Of a stretch of 64,000 bases of DNA, positions 45,014 to 63,676 are shown piece by piece. The notes beneath the pieces are model-generated. The model did not search any database. It had not been told where the DNA came from and saw only the letters and a list, made by a program, of their open reading frames with translations. Position 1 is the stretch's first letter. Each line of letters begins with the position of its first letter. The position numbers and the translations under genes are program-made. The stretch covers positions 1,116,001 through 1,180,000 of the forward strand of contig NC_057383.1 in NCBI RefSeq assembly GCF_016906535.1, given 5' to 3'. This stretch comes from Rhizoctonia solani. Its lineage: Eukaryota; Basidiomycota; Agaricomycetes; Cantharellales; Ceratobasidiaceae.

Positions 45014-46333
45014 CTATCTGCGTCGTGCCCAGAACTCTCCCTCACGCATGGAGTGAGTATAAAAGTACTTCTTCTTCTTCTCGCAATCATCTCGGACTGT
45101 GTCAAATATGGTTCTTATCGAGTCAAAGTTAAAAGATTCGCTAGATTCGACGTTTGATGATAGCTGTCTGGCCAGCATTATTCCTACAGAACACCCCATT
45201 CGTAAGGCTGTTATCATCCCTTGGGATGAGAGGGTCGAACGCGATTGCAGCATCGCCAACAGCACACCATTGACTGTCTTTGTCCCCGTACGGCGATAAA
45301 AACGAGGACCCAGCTGCCGTACATTGCGGATAGCTCATGTTGCTACCTGTCATTGGCCGGTATTCAGTATCAGTGATGATCTTTGATATATGCAGTGTCT
45401 GCGTGCAGTAGATCCATAAACCCATCCAGTCGCCGGGCAACCTTCGCGGGGGCGTCACAGTCATCGGTGTGAAATACGACGACGCGCTTTTGGTCAGAAA
45501 GCTGAGAGCTGTACCACCACCCAGTTTCCGTGGCCTCGATAAGTGTGCGATAGTCTGGATCTACGTCTGTTGACGAAAAGACTGTATAAAATGCGATTAG
45601 ACTATCAAGTCTGACTGTTTTTGCGCCAAGCTAGGAGAGCATCGTCAGAGATCAGTCACACGTGTTCAGAAACGCGAACCCACTTTCTGCGCGACAGTAG
45701 CCTTTCGTCCAGAGGCGTCGATGAGCCACTTCGCGCGCAGAGTATGTTCTTCACCGGATTCAGAACGCACAACAAGTGTCCATCCATTGGAGATCCTCAA
45801 CACTGACTTAAAGTTTGCGTTGATCACCTTGGATGATACTGCGATTCCGTCGCCACAAAGCGAACGCACACAAGTCCGTAGCTGTTCGTCAAATGCAGCA
45901 CGGTTGAGGTGCCATCCTTTACCAAAAGGATTTGTGGTCGCGGGTGTCTCCTGCAAATCCTGAGATTGCCATGCTGATGCGTTTGCCGTGCAGTGTGCAT
46001 GTATGCCTGTTGCTGTGTCTTGTTCTAGGCGCTGTGCGATAGAGGGAGACGGATACTGTAAAAATCGTCTTGACTCTCCGGGCAATGATTCTCCTATCTG
46101 TAGCCCTCGACATCAATAATGGCCTACTAGAAGATTTGGACTTTGCCAACCTTGAAACGGGTTGAATTAGTGTTATCAATAAGCGCGAATGTAGCCTTCG
46201 GCGCTGAGCGCATTAGGGATAAAGTCGTGGCACACCCAGCGATACCGCCTCCGACCACAATAACTGGGACACTGTAAGTGAAAGCAAGGCTGGTTGAGGG
46301 ATACTACACACCACCAAAGTAAGTCTCGTCCAT
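45014..46333 (-). CDS. LodB-like FAD-dependent oxidoreductase, copy 1
   Basis: Start MDETYFGGV at 46,333; first intron begins at 46,307. FAD-binding VPVIVVVGGGIAGCATTLSL follows, then IGESLPGESRRFLQY, SQDLQETPATTNPFGKGWHL, WLIDASGRKATVAQK, LIEATETGWWYSSQL, AVGDAAIAFDPL and the terminal GEFWARRR. This set (GES.P, LQE, GWHL, DA.GR, GWWYS, GDAA..DPLSS.G, FW.RR) is that of the LodB/GoxB and tryptophan-halogenase-like flavoproteins. LodB enzymes modify a peptidyl Trp to build the cysteine tryptophylquinone of LodA oxidases. Compared with copy 2 it has one more deletion near 45,400 and another near 45,225 (DPL then SSQGMITAL). It may therefore be inactive, or suffer consensus errors. It lies about 17 kb from copy 2, same strand. 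Confidence 0.72.
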
Positions 46334-47570: not shown

Positions 47571-49659
47571 ATGTCTCGTTCCCATTTCAAACCCGGGCCA
47601 CATCCAAGGAGTTGTTTTACGTGCCGGCAGCGGTGAGTCATCTTCCTCTATCCATTGCGTTAAACTTGAGCTTTGATAAAATACAGGCGGAAGAAGTGCG
47701 ATTTGAGTAGACCTCATTGTGAAAGATGTAAAAAAGGTGGCTTCAAGTGCCTTGGATATGCTGATTGTGGTGCTCGTACAAGCATCCAAGAAGAATGTTC
47801 TAGTGTACTGATCCCTTCTCAGTCACAATATGCGACCATTTTGGACACTTCAATGTCAAATTCTGAGTTCAAAGTAAGATCGGATTGAATCTATCTCGCG
47901 CATAGGCCTTGTGGACTCAGGGTGTTTATTCAAGTTAGCTGGTTTATGCACCGTAGATTTTGGCCTCCAGCCCGCAGGTGTAATTGCGCAACATGCACAC
48001 CAAGATGCAGATGATAATCACGCAAATCACAGTTTTGGTTCTTTGGTTCCCAAAGCACAGGCTGGCATTGGCTACAATGCTTCGTCTACTCTAGAAAGCA
48101 ATGCTTATTCATCGCTGCAAGACTCGGTACAGACAATAACACACTGGGACTCACCACTGCAACAATACTTGGGACCCAGGAGGCTTCTCGAAGTAGTTTC
48201 AGATGAACGAAATCGAAAAGATTATACGAATAATTCTATTCGAGCCTTATGTACATCAATTCCCGCCTCAGTGGATGCGGCGGAGATGATGAGGGAAGGG
48301 CGTTTTGTGTATATTATCAATGATTGTAAGTGATTTTTAATCCTGAATGTTCCGCATGAATATCTCCTGAGTCATAATAATATAGACCAGATGCAGAGGG
48401 TTAAGTATTGGTTCACAATTCCTCCGGCTCCAGTCCGTGACTTAATGATGGACCGGCTAGGAAGATCGAAAGCCATGATTTGGGCAATGTGTTTGTCAGC
48501 GAATTTGTTCAGGGAGCTTGGTAAAAACCCAAACGGATTAGGACTCTTGAACTGTATTGGCTTAATTGATAGCCTGAGGACAAGTTCAGCAGCTATTTCT
48601 ACTGCAGTTCAACACTGCAGGATGCAGCGGACTGTCTCTTGGCCCAGCTCGAAGTAAGCTATTTTCTTGGTTGTTGACTACATGGATTGATTAGTATGTG
48701 TCATCAGTTAGCATTTCTCAGATTCGCCTCAATTGGTGTTATTTCGGGATACACCGTACTTCAAAAGGTGTTACCCAAATTCCTGTACTTGGTAGCAGCC
48801 AACCCAGATCTATACATGGAACATCCCAATGGCAGCCTAGTCGTTTCATTCCCCCACACAATTAGTTCATCACACTACGAACTCAAGCGTTTTCTTATGT
48901 ACGATACCGCCACAGCTCTTATTCTAGGAGTTTCACCTCTGGTAGAATATGGGTACGATGGGGAGTGCAATCCTGTGTCTCATGGGCTCGAGTGGGTACA
49001 TGGAGTACCTGTTGCGCTTGCCGAGGTTATAGCACAAGTCAATTCGTGGAGGGCTGGTTCTAGAGCTCCTCCTCTACATAACTGGGAAATATTGGAAAGA
49101 CGTGTTTTAGACTGGGAGCCACAATCAATCAAATCGGAAACCGATAGTTCTGGGGCCGAGATGGTGGCAAGGCTGGCACTACACGAGGGTTGGAGGCACG
49201 TCGCACTCATTTATATTTATATGGTATGTTATGTATAGCATTATTTTCGTAGAAAACATCTGGATGAATTCAACAGGGCATTTGTGGCGTTTCATCGCAT
49301 GATTTCCGTGTGCAGGCATCGATACAACAAATAGTTAGGCTTGGGAATACTGTGGTGGATCTTCCGATAGGGGTTCATATGTTTATACATTGCGTTGTGG
49401 TGAGCTCAATGCCGGCATTCTATATACCCATTTATTGAATTAAGAATGCATACAGGTAGGGCTTGGAGCCCGGTATGAAAAGCAACGATCGATGGTACGA
49501 GATAAACTCATTTCATTCAAGGGAACCAGAGTCTGGTTCTTTCGCGGATCAGAGTTTAGTCTAGTCCTTGATCATTTATGGCATGGCGCGGGGGCAGGCG
49601 GAGCACCTGTTACTTGGGATGATTATGTGCGATCAAGATGTACAGTACTTCCCATCTGA
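47571..49659 (+). CDS. Zn2Cys6 transcription factor, tandem copy 1
   Basis: Exon 1 47571-47632 and exon 2 47687-47873 encode the Zn2Cys6 cluster with Cys at residues 15, 18, 25, 32, 35 and 42 (CFTCRQRRKKC...CERCKKGGFKC). A Ser/Asn-rich linker follows, then a fungal-specific regulatory domain: VKYWFTIPPAPVRDLMMDRL, FLYLVAANPDLYMEHPNGSL, SPLVEYGYDGECNPVSHGLE, VHGVPVALAEVIAQVNSWRA, EGWRHVALIYIYM. The gene ends DHLWHGAGAGGAPVTWDDYV...TVLPI. Frame breaks are seen at the start of exon 3 and near 48,620 (HC then LQDAADCLLAQLE). It is the first of three tandem, same-strand paralogues between the two flavoenzyme genes. It probably binds DNA as a Gal4-type regulator; targets unknown, local genes likely. 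Confidence 0.82.
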
Positions 49660-52086
49660 GGACAACGGGCATTGCCACATTAGTGCTTTATTTAGCCACA
49701 TGATATTGCTTAGCCACTAGTCATATTACTCTAGGTTAGTTGTATTGTCACACATTATTAGGCTGCGATGCACCTTGGATCAAAGCCTCAAATCGAATTC
49801 AAATGGTTGCAAGATGCTTTTTGGAATAGAGTTAAGGACATATACATTTTTTCTAGGTGAGTTTCAGAACACATACAATGATGGTGAGTAGGGAACGCGT
49901 TTGATATGGGCAGCAATATCCCTCCCTTTTGAGTCTCTCTTTCTGGAGAACGTGAAATTTGCCAGCGGGGACGTAGTCATAATGAATAAGGCCGATTTGA
50001 CAAAATGGGGTCTTGGACAAATCCTACAACAGCGTGCGTATGATACTCAAAAGGAGTTAACGGTATTCATGTACCTTCTTCCTCATCCAAATCCTATCAG
50101 GTGAGACATATTGGGATCTAGGAAGCGATTGGGGTCAAATAGTTCTGGGTCTTCATATATTACCACGTTCCGGCTCATTGCTCTGGGCGAAGCCACACTA
50201 GTTTGGGGAGCACATTATCATTGAATAATAACCAAGAATTCGTCATTCTATAGCTTTCGAGATGCCATTCTACCACGAGCACCAGGCGGGGAGTACGAGA
50301 CACATACACAACTGTACCTTTTTCGATATTTTACCCTCTATAGGTCGTCTTGTGAACACACATGTGGAACACCTATAATCAAAACAAAGTAAGCCCAATA
50401 CCTTATTTGTACTTTCGTATAGTGAAGTAACGCTCAGAGATATTTTATACCATCTCAAGACCTCTGAGATGAGATTTTGGATCTACGGCAGTCGTCCACG
50501 ATCAGACAAGGTCGGAAGCGTATTAGTACCAACGACAGGGTTTTTGGGCTCCCGTAGAGCATTTATCCTTACAGAGACCAATGGAGAGCTCGTTAAGGCG
50601 AGTCTCTTTCTCCTCCACTGTTAAACCTGCGGTCATTCCTTTGCCTTGTAGCAAATAACTCAGAACAGACGGCCCCGCTGTTCCTGCCACCTGGAGTAAG
50701 GGCTAAATGAGAGAGACATCAACCAAATCGGAGATACTCGTACACTACTTGAGATATGGTCCATTCGTAGAGCGACTTGTATGTCCTCTCTTTATGCTCT
50801 CTCCACTCCCGGGCCGCACCTTTTCACTCTGCTCCTGGGAGCCATTTGGGCATATAGTTCAGAAATGGAAAGAGGTTCACAGCAAATCCGATTGCGCTGT
50901 GGTTAAGTGACAACAATCGTATGGTTACCTAAAAGACCACGAATCAGTAGTGAGGTCAAAAGATCTAGCCATGAGACTGATAGTCAATTGCCCATCTTCA
51001 AATGATCTGTCTTGCTTGCTTTTTAGTTGATAGCCATATTCAAGTTGGAGTATTGTGGAGTCGGTTGCACTGGGTTATTTCCGAACACTACAACGAGATA
51101 TACGCAAACTAAATGGACGATTCTTACAGCAAGATTAATTCTCCATGGTCTCTTGGCGCGTTGATTGAGTTATTACCTCCCCCTATCACAAGGCTGTTTA
51201 TCGATCCGTTAAATTGTGTAACCACTCGGGCGTTGAGCCATGTGTTTAATACACAAGATTGGTGGCGCCAAATATCGTCACGACAAGCATAGATAGGCTG
51301 CCGGATAGGTCAAATCTAATAGAATACCACTGAGATTGATGAGCCCCCCAACCAGACTCCAACGTATAATTATAACTCACAGGGCCAGATCCTTGCCGAA
51401 TAGTGGACAAAGACGATTAGGATATATCTCTGAAAGACTTTCAAGGAGATCCAATGCGGCTTTCGAAGAGTTCAGCACAATCATACGTTGATCAAAGACC
51501 TCTAAAAAGATTATACTGACTTGCAGGTTGGGCCGTGGTATTGGTTGTTAGATTCGAGTGTGATTGAACATCGTACTTTTAAGTTAGTCTCAGATATTCA
51601 TAAAATCGAGGTGAATAAACCCATATGATACACAAAAAATTATCGATGATAGGTAGTGATATAGGGGAAGCCGGACGACGAGATATGTGCTTATACGGGA
51701 CCAGTAAAACGGAGGCTGCCAGCGCAAGTAATGCATACAAAATAGTTTACCGATCACTTGCCAATGGAAGCAAGTCAAGCATAGTCATTATTTAATTGGA
51801 CTATATGAGGGGAGGCCAGGGGCGAGTGCCTATAACATCTTCTACTATATTACGTGTATCTTGTACAGATCATTGTGGCGAGGTATTCGGCATCCACGTG
51901 ATGTCCGACTTTGCCAAATAATCACGAGCTGCAAATGACGATGATAATCACTCGTTGACATTATTAACAAGGCGAGTTCCCAGTCTGTATATTCAATTGT
52001 GGTGGAGATGCCAACACCTAATATTCTGGAACACAGCGACGTAAGGTCAAGAGCGCACCTCATATCAACCATTTCAACCTCAGCTT
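49660..52086. other. 2.4-kb intergenic, degenerate
   Basis: AT-rich with scattered stops in all frames. The frames at 49901-50104 and 50707-50910 resemble nothing I can name. It could hold decayed sequence; nothing can be supported. Confidence 0.5.
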
Positions 52087-54131
52087 ATGTCTTCTGCCAA
52101 GCATTCCAGACACGGGCCCCGACCTACAAGGTGTATTACATGTTGGCAGAGGTGAGGCATACCATCAATAAGCCCACACAGCTTTCAAAATTACGGTGCT
52201 TTGGCAGACGAAAGCAATGTGATTCAACCGAGCCAAGTTGCGAAAGGTGTTTGAAAGGTGGTTTCGAATGCCTTGGGTATGGTGATCGCGAGTCACACGC
52301 AAGATTATATCGGAAGGTCCCTTGTGGGCTGATTTCACAATCCCAGCCCATCCATCCTACTCTTCCCATGTTTCCCCCAGATGCTGAGGCAGGTACACAT
52401 ACCAACCCAAGTGATCAGAGATCAACCTGCTTTCTCGGTATTTGACAGGCATTACCGGATCCTGGTACAACCAAAACATCAGGCGATATACAATCCCTGA
52501 ATCATGTGGATGATAGTTTTACGCATTTGTCAACTGGTTGCATTCCTGTGCTCACAGAAAACCGCACCGGAATACACTCTTTGGAGATTTTTAATAGCTC
52601 ATGGCCTCAGAATCAAACCCAACCGACCCCTCGTCGGCGGGCTCCGTTACATGAGACTTCCAGTACCAAGAACTCTTCAGGAACCAAAGCTGATATACAA
52701 TTCGTCATGAGACATATATCCAAATCCATCGAATTCCTGTGTACAGCCATACCACCACCTGTGTTCTCAGCTCAAACACAGGAGAGAGCCGCTTTATTCA
52801 TATGCTCAATGACTGTGAGTAGGGTCACTTTATTCATTTCGAATATTTTGAACTGTGGTCTTTAGATCAGACACAGCGCAGCAGTTTCTTCTTTATGCCG
52901 CCCCCAGCCCAAGCTCGCGTATATATGATGAAGCGACTAAGCAATTCAAGGATAACAAAATGGGCGTTATATTTGGGCGTACGCATATTTGGAGCACTCG
53001 ATCAAGATCGTAGTGATTGGAATACCGGAGGTTACATTGGTTGGATTGATAAATTTGAGCAGAGAATGGTCCATTCTACCATCAAAAACTCGTCTCTGAG
53101 TGATCTAGCGGACCGTTTAATGGCTCAACTCGAAGTGAGCTACCGCTTTTAGTTATTGACTAAGAAGCTAACTCGCACCTTTTACAAGTTGACGTATCTC
53201 GGTTTCATAGCTGCAGGCAGTACTTTGGGGTATCAGTTACTTCAGAAAGCACTACCTGGGTTCCTTCGTTTGGTAGCAGCCGACCCAAACCTTGTTGCGG
53301 AGCAACCCGATGGTGGCCTACTAGTCTCTTTCCCGCGTGCGTTTGGTACTTCCCTACAAGAAATCAAGCGGTTTATTATTTACGACATGGCCACGGGATT
53401 TTTACTAGGAGTTCCACCTCTACTGGAGTATGATTACTATGGCAAGTGCGACCCTGTATCTCATGGATCCGAGTGGATACATGGCGTCCCTGTCCCACTT
53501 GTTGAGATTATATCACAAATTAACTCGTGGAGGGCCGGATTCAAAGTGCCTTTAGATGATTGGCAAATCCTAGAAAGTCGTGTTATGGTTTGGGAGGTAC
53601 AACCACTCCCAATAGAGGACGGTGATTCCAGGATGAACGTAGCAAGACTAGCAATACAAGAAGGCTGGAGGCATGTGGTACTAATTTACATCTATATGGT
53701 ACGCAGGCTATTCTTTCTTACCTTAGAATGGGGCCGAACGTACCTGCCAGGGCATCTGTGGCGTTTCGTCCCATGACTCGCGTGTACAGGCTTCAATAGC
53801 CCAAATAATCCAGTTGGAAGGGATCGTAGCTGGCTTGCCAATTAGCATACATATGCTTATGCATTATGTAGTTGTGAGTTTTGCATACGAACCAATCGAT
53901 CTTGTTTACTATCTTTATCGTACGCAGGCAGGAATGGGTGCACGATATGAACAGCAGCGGTCCATCATCCGACAAAAGCTCGTTTCATTCAAGGGAAAGG
54001 GAGCATGGCTCTTTCAGGGGCCAGAATTTACCCAGATCCTCGATCATTTGTGGCATGGTGCAGGCGCGGGAGGTGCTCCAGTTATGTGGGATGATTATGT
54101 TCAGTCAAGGTGCACGGTAATCCACATATGA
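52087..54131 (+). CDS. Zn2Cys6 transcription factor, tandem copy 2
   Basis: Starts MSSAKHSRHGPRPTRC. The cluster Cys are at residues 16, 19, 26, 33, 36 and 43, split by an intron after WQ-R (donor at 52,152; acceptor before RRKQC near 52,205), exactly where copy 3 is split. The regulatory domain repeats copy 1: FFFMPPPAQARVYMMKRL, GGYIGWIDKFEQRM, LADRLMAQLE, FLRLVAADPNLVAEQPDGGL, GVPPLLEYDYYGKCDPVSHG, EGWRHVVLIYIYM, DHLWHGAGAGGAPVMWDDYV, ending TVIHI. It shares gene order, intron positions and sequence with its neighbours. This is the best-preserved of the three in its long central exon (53156-53699). Confidence 0.85.
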
Positions 54132-54827: not shown

Positions 54828-56903
54828 ATGTCCTCCGCTCAGCAAACTAGACATGGTCCACGTCCCACAAGCTGCCTTACATGCTGGCAGAGGTGAGCCA
54901 GGCCAATTCTAACGCACTCCTTGCTGATGTTGCCCATGGTTAATCATGATTTGATAGGCGAAAGAAATGTGATTTAGCGCAGCCGCGGTGCCAAAGGTGT
55001 CTGAAAGGGGGCTTTGAATGTTTGGGATATGGGACCGTGCGCTACATGAGAGAGCCTATCGAAAGGACTCTCATGTGCCAACCCCGCGATCGCGGCCTAA
55101 TCTTCCTCCTACTTCGTTACAAGAGTCACCGTCTCAGGTGAGGTTTACGACCTTGGATCTCATTGTGATCTGATATTGACACGTTCCCTGATTTCGAATA
55201 GACAGTGGCGGGTTCCGCTACATTCGCGGTACCCGAAAGTAGTCAACATCCGAACAGTGCTAGTTATGGTTCTGCCTCTTCGATTTTGGGAAAGGCAATG
55301 CATTATATGGCGACAAGAAATATGTACGAGGGCTCCGACGATACGCGCTCTCGAGAAGACTTTGACAACACATGGTTGAGCAATCAAAATCGCTTGACCC
55401 CCTATCCGCCTCCCTCGTCACGCAAGCTCCAAACGTGCATAACTCACTTCAGCTGCATCCGTCAGAGGGCCTACCAGAAATCACATGGCCGGATTCCTTG
55501 AATCTTTGTGCGCATCCCTTCCTCCCTCGGTGGTCTCAGCTCATACAATTGGCGAGACGCGTTTTATATATATGGTCAACGAATGTAAGTGAAACCGTTC
55601 CATCTATTCTGTATATGTTGATTCTACGTCTATAGACCAGTTACAGAGGGTCAATTGCTGGTTCATGCCCCCTCCACCTCAGGTCCGGGGAGTCATGATT
55701 GATCAGCTGAGAAGTTCGAAGATGATGATATGGACAGTCTTTCTAGGGTTAAAGCTATTTAAATCCCTCGATCAAGATTCCTGCGATTTGAGATCGAGTG
55801 GAAGTATCGGTTGGATCGACAAACTCGAACAACGGATCACCGTCACCTGCAAGAAATTATCCCTTAAGGAGATGGCAGATCGTCTTATGGCTCAACTCGA
55901 AGTAAGACTCCATTTTCTCTATCTTTCACAACAAGAAATAAGCTAACTCGCTCCATGTTAGTTAACGTTCATTAGTTTTGTGACGGTCGGGGTTCCTTTG
56001 GGATATAGTCTGCTTCGGAAAGCGCTACCGGGGTTTCTTCGTCTTGTAGCAGTCGATCCAAATCTCATCTCAGAACACCCCAACGGGAGTTTGTTTATCT
56101 CTTTCCCGCAAACTTTGGGGATACCCCGGCAAGAACTCAACACATTTATTCTATACGATGCTGCCACAGCGTTTGCACTAGGAGTTCCGTCTCTAGCGGA
56201 GTATGGTTATGATGGGAAATGCGATCCTACATCTCACGGGTATCAATGCGTGCATGGAGTCCCTGTCCCACTTGTCGAAATCATATCGCAAGTCAACTCA
56301 TGGAGAGACGGATCAAGAATAGGTCTGGACGACTGGCAAACTCTGGAGAGTCGCGCGATGGCTTGGCAGGGACAACCTTTGCCCATAGAGGACGAAGATC
56401 CAAAGGTGAATGTTGCAAGGTTGGCAGTCCAAGAAAGTTGGAGATATGTAACTTTGGTTTATCTTTATATGGTATGTTGCTGGTCATTTTGGCCCTCTCC
56501 TAGGATCAACCTGACGTGTTACTAGGGCATGTGTGGTCTTTCCTCCAACGATTCGCGTGTGCGAGCTTCAATTGCGCAAATAGTCAACCTCGAGCGACGT
56601 GTAACCGATATATCAATCAGCATGCATATGCTGATGCATTATGTAGTAGTAAGTTTGGAATACATACTTTGAAATCCAGTTTACTTATCTCCATGCATAG
56701 CTCGGTTTGGGAGCACAACATGAAGAACAGCGAGCTATTATCCGTGAGAGGTTGCTTTCTTTCCAGGGTAGGCGAGTGTGGCTATTCCGTGGACCAGAAT
56801 TCAGTCGGGTCCTTGACCACCTGTGGAACGGTGTGGGTGCAGGAGGTGCACCGTTACTTGGGATGACTATGTCCGGTCGAGGTGTGCAGTTCTTCCTATC
56901 TGA
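54828..56903 (+). CDS. Zn2Cys6 transcription factor, tandem copy 3
   Basis: Starts MSSAQQTRHGPRPTSC. The Cys spacing (16, 19, 26, 33, 36, 43) and intron position match copy 2. The linker region 55,040-55,520 changes frame more than once relative to the paralogues. The central domain is intact: CWFMPPPPQVRGVMIDQLRS, GSIGWIDKLEQRI, FLRLVAVDPNLISEHPNGSL, GVPSLAEYGYDGKCDPTSHG, VHGVPVPLVEIISQVNSWRD. Near the end one base is missing (near 56,852), so that GGAP should continue VTWDDYVRSRC and end VLPI at 56,901-56,903. Role as for copies 1 and 2: putative regulator, perhaps of the flanking flavoenzyme/peptide genes. Confidence 0.8.
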
Positions 56904-60748: not shown

Positions 60749-60756
60749 TATAAAAA
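60749..60756 (+). promoter_or_regulatory. TATA box of the repeat-peptide gene
   Basis: TATAAAAA lies 52 bases before the ATG at 60,808. It is a canonical TATA element at short distance, which suggests an inducible or strongly expressed gene with a short leader. Confidence 0.5.
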
Positions 60757-60807: not shown

Positions 60808-61306
60808 ATGAGCATCCTGTCCCAGCAATCTACCTTTGTTGACATCCTCACGGAGGATTTCTTCACCAAACCTACTATGGCTAACATGTGCCCCGGCAGG
60901 CCTTGGTACGTGTACATACCTTAGCTGTGCTAGCATGACTACTGACTATTTCCTGAGAATAGGTGGGATGGCACCACGGAGTCACAAACCCCCGTCGCTG
61001 AAGCACTAACTGAAGATTTCTTCACCAATCCTAGCATGACTAATCTATGCCCCGGCAGGCCTTGGTACGTATATCTTAGCTGGGCTAGTATACTTACTGA
61101 CTAGCCCCTAAAAATAGGTGGGATGGCACCACGGACTCTCAAGTTCCGGTTGTTGAGGCACTAACTGAAGATTTCTTTACCAACCCTACCATGATTAATC
61201 TGTGCCCCGGCAAGCCTTGGTACGTATGCTTTAAATAGATTACCATGCTTACTGATTAGCTCCCGGGAATAGGTGGGACGGCACCGTTGAAGAGTTAGCC
61301 CTCTAA
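60808..61306 (+). CDS. Three-repeat Cys/Trp-Trp peptide, candidate RiPP precursor
   Basis: Four exons: 60808-60905, 60963-61064, 61118-61219, 61273-61306, 111 residues, all in phase and with no frame defect. The protein is a leader (MSILSQQSTFVDI) followed by three copies of a 34-residue unit. The unit pattern is LTEDFFTxPxMxNxCPG[RK]P, then WWDGT, then an acidic/Gln spacer and PVxEA before the next copy; the end is VEELAL. Every intron splits the first W codon (TG then G), so each unit equals one 102-nt symmetric exon. No signal peptide, membrane segment or Kex2 (KR) site is seen, so a cytosolic precursor is expected. The invariant CPGxPWWDG is the likely core or recognition element. The nearest gene downstream is a Trp-related flavoenzyme. 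Alternatives: a small repeat-binding adaptor or unknown structural protein. Family not recognised. Confidence 0.75.
60963..61272 (+). repeat. Two 155-bp exon-plus-intron tandem repeats
   Basis: Exon 2 start (60,963), exon 3 start (61,118) and exon 4 start (61,273) are each 155 bases apart. Not only the 102-nt exons but also the 53-nt introns are alike: GTACGTAT at the 5' end, TACTGA(C/T)TAG branch region, GAATAG or AAATAG at the 3' end. Intron 1 (57 nt) and the second half of exon 1 are a third, older copy. Confidence 0.85.
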
Positions 61307-62346
61307 TTTGGACGAAGGCCTGAATATCTGAATCCTTTGGTACGACTTATCACAGTTCACACAGACTTATATTAATGTCTTGTCCTTTAAAATATAAACA
61401 GGTCAACTATAGATTGGGAGAGAGGTTGCATGGGGTATCTTGGCCAATAGCAACCTAGGACAATTTCTTTTCCAGTCTGCATCGAGGGTGGAGCACATCG
61501 TCTTGAGTTTTGAAATAATGTATGATGATATCATCTCGTATAACGAATATATTGCTGTTGTTGAGTGGATAAAGTAGAGTGGATAGAAGTAGAACATGTC
61601 AATATGTGAGAAAGGACCAAGACCCGCATAATTGAATATATGTAAATAACAGCCGATACCTGTGGTATAAAAGGACAAAGGGAAGAAATGCTCACACGAA
61701 TACGTTTATACTGTGAATCTACTTGATGTTATTCTGCGTGCCAATTAGGGGTTTGAGTGTGCATAGTAGATACTCGCAAGGTGATCCAAGTCATGGACAA
61801 GGGAGAAGGGCTCGCGGTATTCACCAAATCATTCGTACCCTACTAGTAGTTTCGTTTAGTTCAGTCTAGTATGATATATGACTTCAGGCCCACTGAACAT
61901 ATACTCAGATTTCTTATATGCACTCTCGCGGTCCCGTTCTATTTACTTTCTTGGTTGTAGTTCTAGTTCCTCTCTTTCTCGTCTCGATCGCTCGTGTACA
62001 CTGTGACCGGTACATCTTTCTATCTTGTTCGCGCGGCCTGCCCCAGCATTTGCAGTCTAACAACAACATGACTATACTAAGATCCAAAAAAAGTGCCAGG
62101 TAGTGAGAATGTTGGATATTGGATAAAATAGAGATATCCTCAATAAACAGAATAGTTGTGTGGCAATAAACGGCTGGTTTGACTTAATTATATACTTTAA
62201 GACGTTAGCGCGTATGCTTCTTTCCTCCCGCCCGATCGGTGTACGTGCTAGGATTACTACGGATTTTCTTACTGAAAACGTACGCACGTTCAGATACATG
62301 CAGATTTTCATTCAATAGGTAAAAATATGGTACATATAGCGATTTT
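61307..62346. other. Convergent intergenic region
   Basis: 3' flanks of the repeat-peptide gene and flavoenzyme copy 2, which point at each other. AT-rich; frames here are chance. Confidence 0.55.
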
Positions 62347-63676
62347 CTATTTACGCCGCGCCCAGAACTCTCCATCATATATAGAGCGAGCATAATGCAA
62401 TTGCTTCTTCTGCTCGTAATCATCTCGGACCGTGTCAAATATGTTCTTTATCGAGTTAAAGTTAAACGACTCGCGTAACTCTGTGCTTGGCGATAATTGC
62501 CTGGCCAGCATTATACCTACGTGCATCCCATGTGCAAAGCTGTTATCATTCCTTGGTATGAAAGCGGATCGAATGCAATTGCAGCATCGCCAACAGCACA
62601 CCATTGACTGTCTTTGTCCCCGTACGGCGACAAAAACGAGGACCCAGCTGCCGTACATTGCGGATAGCTCATGTTGTTACCTGCCATTGGCCGGTAGTCC
62701 ACATCTGTGATGATCTTCGATACATGCACGTGTCTGCGTGCAGTAGATCCATAAATCCATCCAGTCGCCGGGCAACCTTCGCGGGGGCGTCACAGTCATC
62801 GGTATGGAATACGACAACGCGCTTTTGGTCGGAAAGCTGAGAGCTGTACCACCACCCAGTTTCCGTGGCCTCGACAAGTGTGCGATAGTCTGGATCTACG
62901 TCTGTTGACGAAAAGACTGTATAAAATGCAATTAAACTATCAGCCTTGACTGTCTTTGCGCCAAGCTGGGAGGAGTAGTGTCAAAAATCAAGTGATACGT
63001 GTTCAGAAACGCGAACCCACTTTCTGTGCGACAGTAGCCTTTCGTCCGGACGCATCGATGAGCCACTTTGCGCGCAGAGTATGTTCTTCACCGGATTCAG
63101 AACGTACGACAAGTGTCCACCCATCAGAGTTCCTAAGGACTGACTTGAAGTTTGCGTTAATTAATTTGGATGATGTGGTGCTCCCATTATTGCAAACCGA
63201 ACGAACGTAAGCTCGTAGATCCTCTTCAAATGAGGCACGGTTGATATGCCAGCTTTCACCAGAGGGATCAATGGACGCGGGTGTCTCCTGCAAGTCCCGG
63301 GATTGCCACACAGAGGCATTTACTCTGGAGCGTGTATGAACTCCCTTTGCGATGTTTTGATCTAGACGCTCTGCGATTGAGGGAGATAGATAATGTAAGA
63401 ATCGTCTTGATTCGCCAGGCAGCGACTCTCCAATCTGCAGCTCCCAATATCAGCATATCATTCTTCGATAGAAAACCTAGACTTGGCTCACCTTGAAACG
63501 GGCTGGGTTAGCGTTATCAATAAGCGCAAAGGTGGCATCTGGGGCCGAGCGCATCAGGGACAAGGTCGTAGCACATCCAGCAATTCCGCCCCCAACCACA
63601 ATAACTGGGATACTGTGAGCAAGGGTAAGCTGGATTAAATGATATATTACATACCATCAAAGTCGGTCTGGTCCAT
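62347..63676 (-). CDS. LodB-like FAD-dependent oxidoreductase, copy 2
   Basis: Four exons: 63676-63651, 63612-63492, 63434-63021, 62965-62347, 393 residues after two one-base corrections. FAD fold IPVIVVGGGIAGCATTLSLM, IGESLPGESRRFLHY, SRDLQETPASIDPSGESWHI, WLIDASGRKATVAQK, LVEATETGWWYSSQLSDQK, CAVGDAAIAFDPLSYQGM, ending DGEFWARRK. The family is as for copy 1, and long stretches are the same at DNA level. The GWxWxIP motif of true FADH2 tryptophan halogenases is absent; the form GWWYS is LodB-like. Missing bases near 62,733 (HAD then HVHVSKIITD) and 62,520 (MGC then VGIMLARQL) restore the last exon to 621. It lies about 1 kb from the repeat-peptide gene, tail to tail, making it the best candidate tailoring enzyme. 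Confidence 0.78.

Follow-up and report, generated by a model that had tools for sequence, protein, structure and literature searches.

The stretch of Rhizoctonia solani DNA analysed here, called the window, is 64,000 nucleotides long (C14:1116001-1180000 of a searched genome of 40.7 Mb in 16 contigs). Near its end lies a small gene made of tandem repeats (the repeat gene), adjoined at about 1 kb by the gene of a flavoprotein related to the LodB/GoxB/QhpG enzymes, which mature the cofactor cysteine tryptophylquinone (CTQ). Together the two genes suggest a new kind of modified peptide. A first-pass annotation, made from the letters of the stretch, had described a 111-residue protein of three near-identical CPGxPWWDG units about 1 kb from a LodB-like flavin adenine dinucleotide (FAD) enzyme. 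The protein was confirmed by splice-model translation and by the substitution pattern of its cores; the enzyme was confirmed by NCBIfam profiles, among which GoxB and LodB match best, with the addition that its frame is broken twice.

Table 1. Features of the locus, in window coordinates.
Feature	Position	Strand	Description	Basis
Repeat-peptide gene	60808..61306	+	4 exons, 111 aa, three C-P-G-[RK]-P-W-W-D-G units	splice-model translation, dN/dS
Repeat-gene exons	60808-60905, 60963-61064, 61118-61219, 61273-61306 (incl. stop)	+		splice model
Intron 1	60906..60962	+	57 bp, GTACGT...TAG, inside first Trp codon of unit 1	
Intron 2	61065..61117	+	53 bp, GTACGT...TAG, inside first Trp codon of unit 2	
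Intron 3	61220..61272	+	53 bp, GTACGT...TAG, inside first Trp codon of unit 3	
TATA-like box	60749..60756	+	~55 bp 5' of repeat-gene ATG	sequence reading only
LodB/GoxB-type flavoprotein gene, copy 1	62347..63676	-	convergent with repeat gene, two frame breaks	frames, comparison with P0001, NCBIfam
LodB/GoxB-type flavoprotein, copy 2	45014-46333	-	broken	

In the repeat protein, a short N-terminus is followed by three units with the pattern LTEDFFT(N/K)P(T/S)MxN(L/M)CPG(R/K)PWWDGT. Within CPG[RK]PWWDG the Arg/Lys position is the sole variation among the three. All introns are in phase 2, each falling in the first Trp codon of a WW pair, and the internal exons measure 102 nt (34 codons), so that units can be gained or lost with the reading frame kept. 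Tandem Repeats Finder reports an array of 155-bp period at 60856-61285 (83% and 80% matches), and the aligned introns are identical at 44/58, 37/57 and 36/53 columns. One regular expression with bounded intron length found the intron-split C-x4-W-W at three sites in the window, all in the repeat gene; in unsplit form, the C-x4-WW codon pattern has three further sites, two containing a stop and the third reading CGATRWW (53296). The protein is acidic (16 D/E vs 4 K/R). No dibasic (Kex2) site lies between its repeats, as the first-pass annotation had stated, and judged by hydropathy it has no strongly hydrophobic N-terminus (highest 15-residue mean 0.75).

That the repeat is coding and evolves under constraint follows from the large excess of synonymous over non-synonymous differences in the 24-codon core: the ratio of non-synonymous to synonymous substitution rates (dN/dS) is 0.16, 0.12 and 0.17 for the three unit pairs, and the proportion of synonymous differences (pS) is 0.26-0.47 against 0.05-0.09 for non-synonymous ones (pN). 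As few amino acid changes without a stop arose in 1.5%, 0.11% and 7.5% of runs of a neutral simulation for the three pairs, a simple model in which a single unit pair by itself is unconvincing.

Judged by sequence comparison, the copy 1 enzyme is a relative of the CTQ maturases of the LodB/GoxB/QhpG type. Its nearest proteins are also from R. solani. One of them (P0001), labelled 'partial' by its source and known here as a protein record alone, is 98% identical to copy 1 and unbroken. P0001 matches the curated NCBIfam families GoxB (1.1e-60, residues 7-388), LodB (9e-52) and QhpG (3.2e-29) over near full length, whereas its match to CmlS is only 2.6e-7. Its score of 205.6 bits to GoxB is below the equivalog cut-off of 400, and it is therefore filed as a relative and not as LodB or GoxB; a bacterial LodB-like protein adjoining LodA scores about the same (192.5 bits to GoxB, 202.3 to LodB) and is also below 400. 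The QhpG score of P0001 is 102.1 bits against a cut-off of 240. The motifs GxGxxG, GESL, GWWY, HTD, GDxAxxxDPLSxQG and FWxR are common to the six fungal and three bacterial proteins aligned. WxWxIP, a halogenase motif, was found in 0/16 enzyme relatives (nine of 372-420 aa and seven shorter). Enzyme relatives of 372-420 aa occur in other fungi. The fold group of the enzyme contains mostly small-molecule halogenases and hydroxylases, and the fold search left halogenase and maturase unseparated; among the PDB sequence matches, halogenases rank above QhpG. The enzyme tree leaves the order within the fungal group unresolved, and its bacterial branches are long.

Exon by exon, copy 2 shares 72-89% identity with copy 1; exon 3 has a low dS, suggestive of gene conversion. 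The dN/dS between the copies, which takes in a few codons of intron flank, is 0.17. The annotated relatives of copy 2 (P0002 and P0003) are also shortened, and no repeat gene was found beside copy 2.

Searches for homologues of the repeat protein returned nothing convincing. Among 5.8 billion proteins there were 0 homologues (341 candidates, none at E<=1), and a 70-residue part gave 12 candidates, none at E<=10. Both searches depend on common 5-residue words and cap the length of candidates, and distant or unannotated relatives can escape them; because the gene is small and split by introns, its absence from annotated proteomes is unsurprising. Within its own genome the repeat matched its own three exon stretches and one further site at E 0.55. 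All four Pfam matches were below cut-off (the best, BRWD_AD, with E 0.0011 and 19.1 vs 40 bits), the only two PDB matches had E values of 1.3 and 2, and all were rejected as relatives. In the published literature, no title among the matches listed names the locus, which does not establish that it is unpublished, and a search joining tryptophylquinone, RiPP (ribosomally synthesised and post-translationally modified peptide) and fungal had no match.

Two peptide patterns taken from the aligned fungal enzymes retrieved thirty bacterial loci, a route by which not all of them are LodB-like genes. The enzyme is matched well in 23 (L019-L041, E 9e-25 or better). LodA lies upstream on the same strand in 22 of these 23, and the remaining locus (L038) starts at a contig end. 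The LodA profile was built from six of the 22 as seeds, and Pfam LodA_N and LodA_C were confirmed in 6/6. Seven of the thirty loci have no LodA match, namely L038 and six (L042, L043, L045-L048) where the enzyme itself matches weakly (E 5e-11 to 7e-4); L044 is the only weaker locus (L042-L048) with a LodA match (E 2.7e-7). In L021 and L028 LodA is about 1100 aa long with a weak, sub-cut-off N-terminal catalase-like match, possibly a hydrogen peroxide-making oxidase fused to a catalase-like domain.

The first-pass annotation had named an intact LodA-type oxidase gene just outside the window, one that explains the flavoenzyme, as a refutation of its reading; the partner was sought genome-wide, and no such LodA was found. 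LodA_N and LodA_C (PF17990, PF18417) had 0 matches in this genome, with a positive Caulobacter control, and bacterial LodA had none at E<=10, a blank that would show nothing if it had no positive control; these searches could miss a highly diverged LodA. As a control, the LodB-like protein encoded at the bacterial locus that supplied the LodA query matches this genome at 2.9e-7. LodA is reported from a few Agaricomycetes, in which lodB is oppositely oriented with a ferritin-like gene near (PMC4417212, in part). The only ferritin-like gene found here (PF12902) is on another contig (L053 ~4.7-5.5 kb; C11 ~101.7-102.5 kb).

The Cys and Trp positions of the repeat can be compared with known CTQ sites. 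QhpC (1jmx_G) reads C37-S-D-P-C-W42-W43, which is C-x4-W-W, and the fungal C-P-G-[RK]-P-W-W has equal spacing. According to excerpts of PMC7876137, the CTQ of QhpC is made from Cys37 and Trp43, Trp43 is dihydroxylated by QhpG, and Trp42-Trp43 has been modelled at the FAD of QhpG. The subunit derived from QhpC is reported to contain many acidic residues. CTQ formation in LodA needs LodB (PMC4417212, in part). The LodA pair is Cys516 and Trp581, the latter being the second Trp of W580-W581. Since the second Trp of a WW pair is the one used in both QhpC and LodA, and C-x4-W-W occurs three times in an acidic fungal protein, we take the second Trp to be the likeliest target. C-x4-WW stretches are also present in open reading frames of the bacterial loci L022 (two), L025, L027 and L043. 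At the expected quinone site, F-W-P-A-R-V-P replaces W-W-P in 18/21 of the LodA motifs listed (L021-L041), and the L024 motif has Y-W.

The reading to which we give a probability of roughly one in three is that an orphan relative of the CTQ maturases modifies the second Trp of each repeat in a multi-core precursor. We infer the steps from gene interaction, oxidised residue and QhpG-like chemistry to crosslink, core release and biological role as follows. The repeat gene would yield a multi-core cytosolic precursor, to be modified by the convergent LodB/GoxB/QhpG-type flavoprotein in strains with an intact enzyme. Reduced FAD and O2 would form a flavin hydroperoxide, as in QhpG, which would oxidise the second Trp of each C-x4-W-W at its indole. 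Addition of the nearby Cys may follow, giving either a CTQ-like Cys-Trp product or hydroxy-Trp, three per precursor, and the cores would presumably be freed by a protease. Functional coupling of the two genes is plausible: constraint is similar on both (dN/dS 0.12-0.17 in the repeat cores, 0.17 in the enzyme copies), and the repeat gene is a convergent, opposite-strand neighbour of the enzyme gene, an arrangement like that reported for fungal lodB and lodA (PMC4417212, in part). It is unlikely that a CTQ maturase no longer tied to an oxidase equips free-standing multi-core fungal peptides with tryptophylquinone or Cys-Trp links, so that cofactor-building chemistry yields a redox-active quinone peptide.

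Several caveats attach to the reading of an orphan CTQ-maturase relative acting on the repeat. In this assembly the frame of copy 1 is broken at ~62.73 and ~62.52 kb; the gene is either broken or mis-assembled in the sequenced strain, where the pathway may therefore be silent, and adjacency seen in one genome, next to a broken copy of the enzyme, argues only weakly for coupling. Homology of the repeat to the CTQ region of LodA was ruled out (the hhalign score of 8.07 was reached by 92/100 shuffles). Among the 21 LodA motifs listed, 18 have Phe before the Trp and Cys at x14, and three have C-x3-W-W. By our own estimate, any given Cys-to-WW offset in a 34-residue unit with a single Cys and a single WW would turn up by chance a few per cent of the time, and the match was noticed post hoc. 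The Trp substrates of LodB and GoxB are already 7-hydroxylated, and GoxB has been modelled at long range (PMC7876137, in part); because the fungal enzyme is nearer to these two, direct QhpG-like chemistry is an extrapolation. The RiPP interpretation of the first-pass annotation stands in part: the enzyme family, the failure to find LodA, the constraint and the QhpC spacing favour it, and the lack of homology to the LodA CTQ region and the broken enzyme do not.

A slightly likelier account, itself tentative, is that the flavoprotein is left over from a LodA/LodB system that has lost its oxidase, that both copies are decaying, and that the repeat encodes an unrelated lineage-specific small protein. 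Frame breaks in both copies, the shortened P0002 and P0003, the failure to find LodA in the genome or a repeat gene beside copy 2, and a Helitron 15-20 kb past the window end all fit this account. It is opposed by the unbroken P0001 in another R. solani record (subject to the label and record type given above), by the 372-420 aa relatives in other fungi, and by a dN/dS of ~0.17, which points to constraint on the enzyme copies during much of their history. Rather improbable is a flavoprotein that acts on another substrate, as a small-molecule hydroxylase or halogenase or on some unknown protein, with the repeat peptide independent of it. The fold group and the rank of halogenases above QhpG in the PDB would suit such an enzyme, but the nearest curated families are GoxB, LodB and QhpG, CmlS is distant, and WxWxIP is absent from all 16 relatives. 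The repeat is very unlikely to be a precursor of another type, for example Pro-cut like MSDIN, with the flavoenzyme incidental or tailoring: POPB cuts MSDIN-type peptides at Pro, and in each unit a Pro does lie ten residues ahead of the one preceding WW (a reading of the sequence), but the MSDIN leader is absent from the repeat protein. That the reading frame does not encode a protein, as the lack of a homologue, of a Pfam family above cut-off and of transcript data might suggest, is just as doubtful, since the cores are under purifying selection and three splice-site pairs are conserved.

Elsewhere in the window, pieces of fungal transcription factors span ~47.7-56.5 kb (+), with Zn_clus (51948-52442) and Fungal_trans_2 (55962-56522) above cut-off and sub-cut-off Fungal_trans_2 at 48678-49235 and 53153-53773 (+); these pieces look like tandem paralogues. 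The Helitron (L009 4894-9780, ~14.9-19.8 kb past the window end) has Helitron_like_N and PIF1-like helicase domains. A long tetratricopeptide-repeat protein is encoded at L008 4140-6760.

If modification of the repeat by the neighbouring enzyme is true, tryptophylquinone chemistry, characterised in bacterial enzymes, is used by a fungus for small peptides, and there is an extra fungal RiPP type beyond the known classes, which number four in PMC9233826 and six by PMC7099791 (each in part). The finding poses a simple question, namely whether a short C-x4-W-W peptide can serve as substrate for a LodB-type enzyme.

Among known systems, dikaritins and other Kex2-processed repeat proteins (PMC7329392, in part) also have repeated cores, but the fungal repeat lacks their dibasic sites, and by hydropathy its N-terminus does not look signal-like. 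UstYa (DUF3328) had no match in a search in which no control genome matched either. Amatoxin/MSDIN precursors are marked by an MSDIN leader, which is absent here, the repeat protein starting MSILS. Borosin precursors are fused to a methyltransferase, whereas the repeat protein has 111 aa and no Pfam family above cut-off. ChlH of chlorolassin, a flavin-dependent peptidyl-Trp halogenase in a bacterial RiPP (PMC12518702, in part), likewise pairs a flavoenzyme with a peptidyl Trp, but ChlH-type enzymes are bacterial halogenases and the enzyme here is of LodB type without WxWxIP. The LodB/GoxB maturases are the best curated families over near full length and have common motif positions with the fungal enzyme; they differ in that no LodA was found in the fungal genome and in the score of 205.6 bits against the cut-off of 400. 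The QhpG/QhpC system differs in its single core, against three in the fungal protein, and the repeat has no match to the QhpC family in Pfam and none to QhpC in the PDB, but in both a flavoprotein would act on Trp of a small acidic protein, and the C-x4-W-W spacing is alike.
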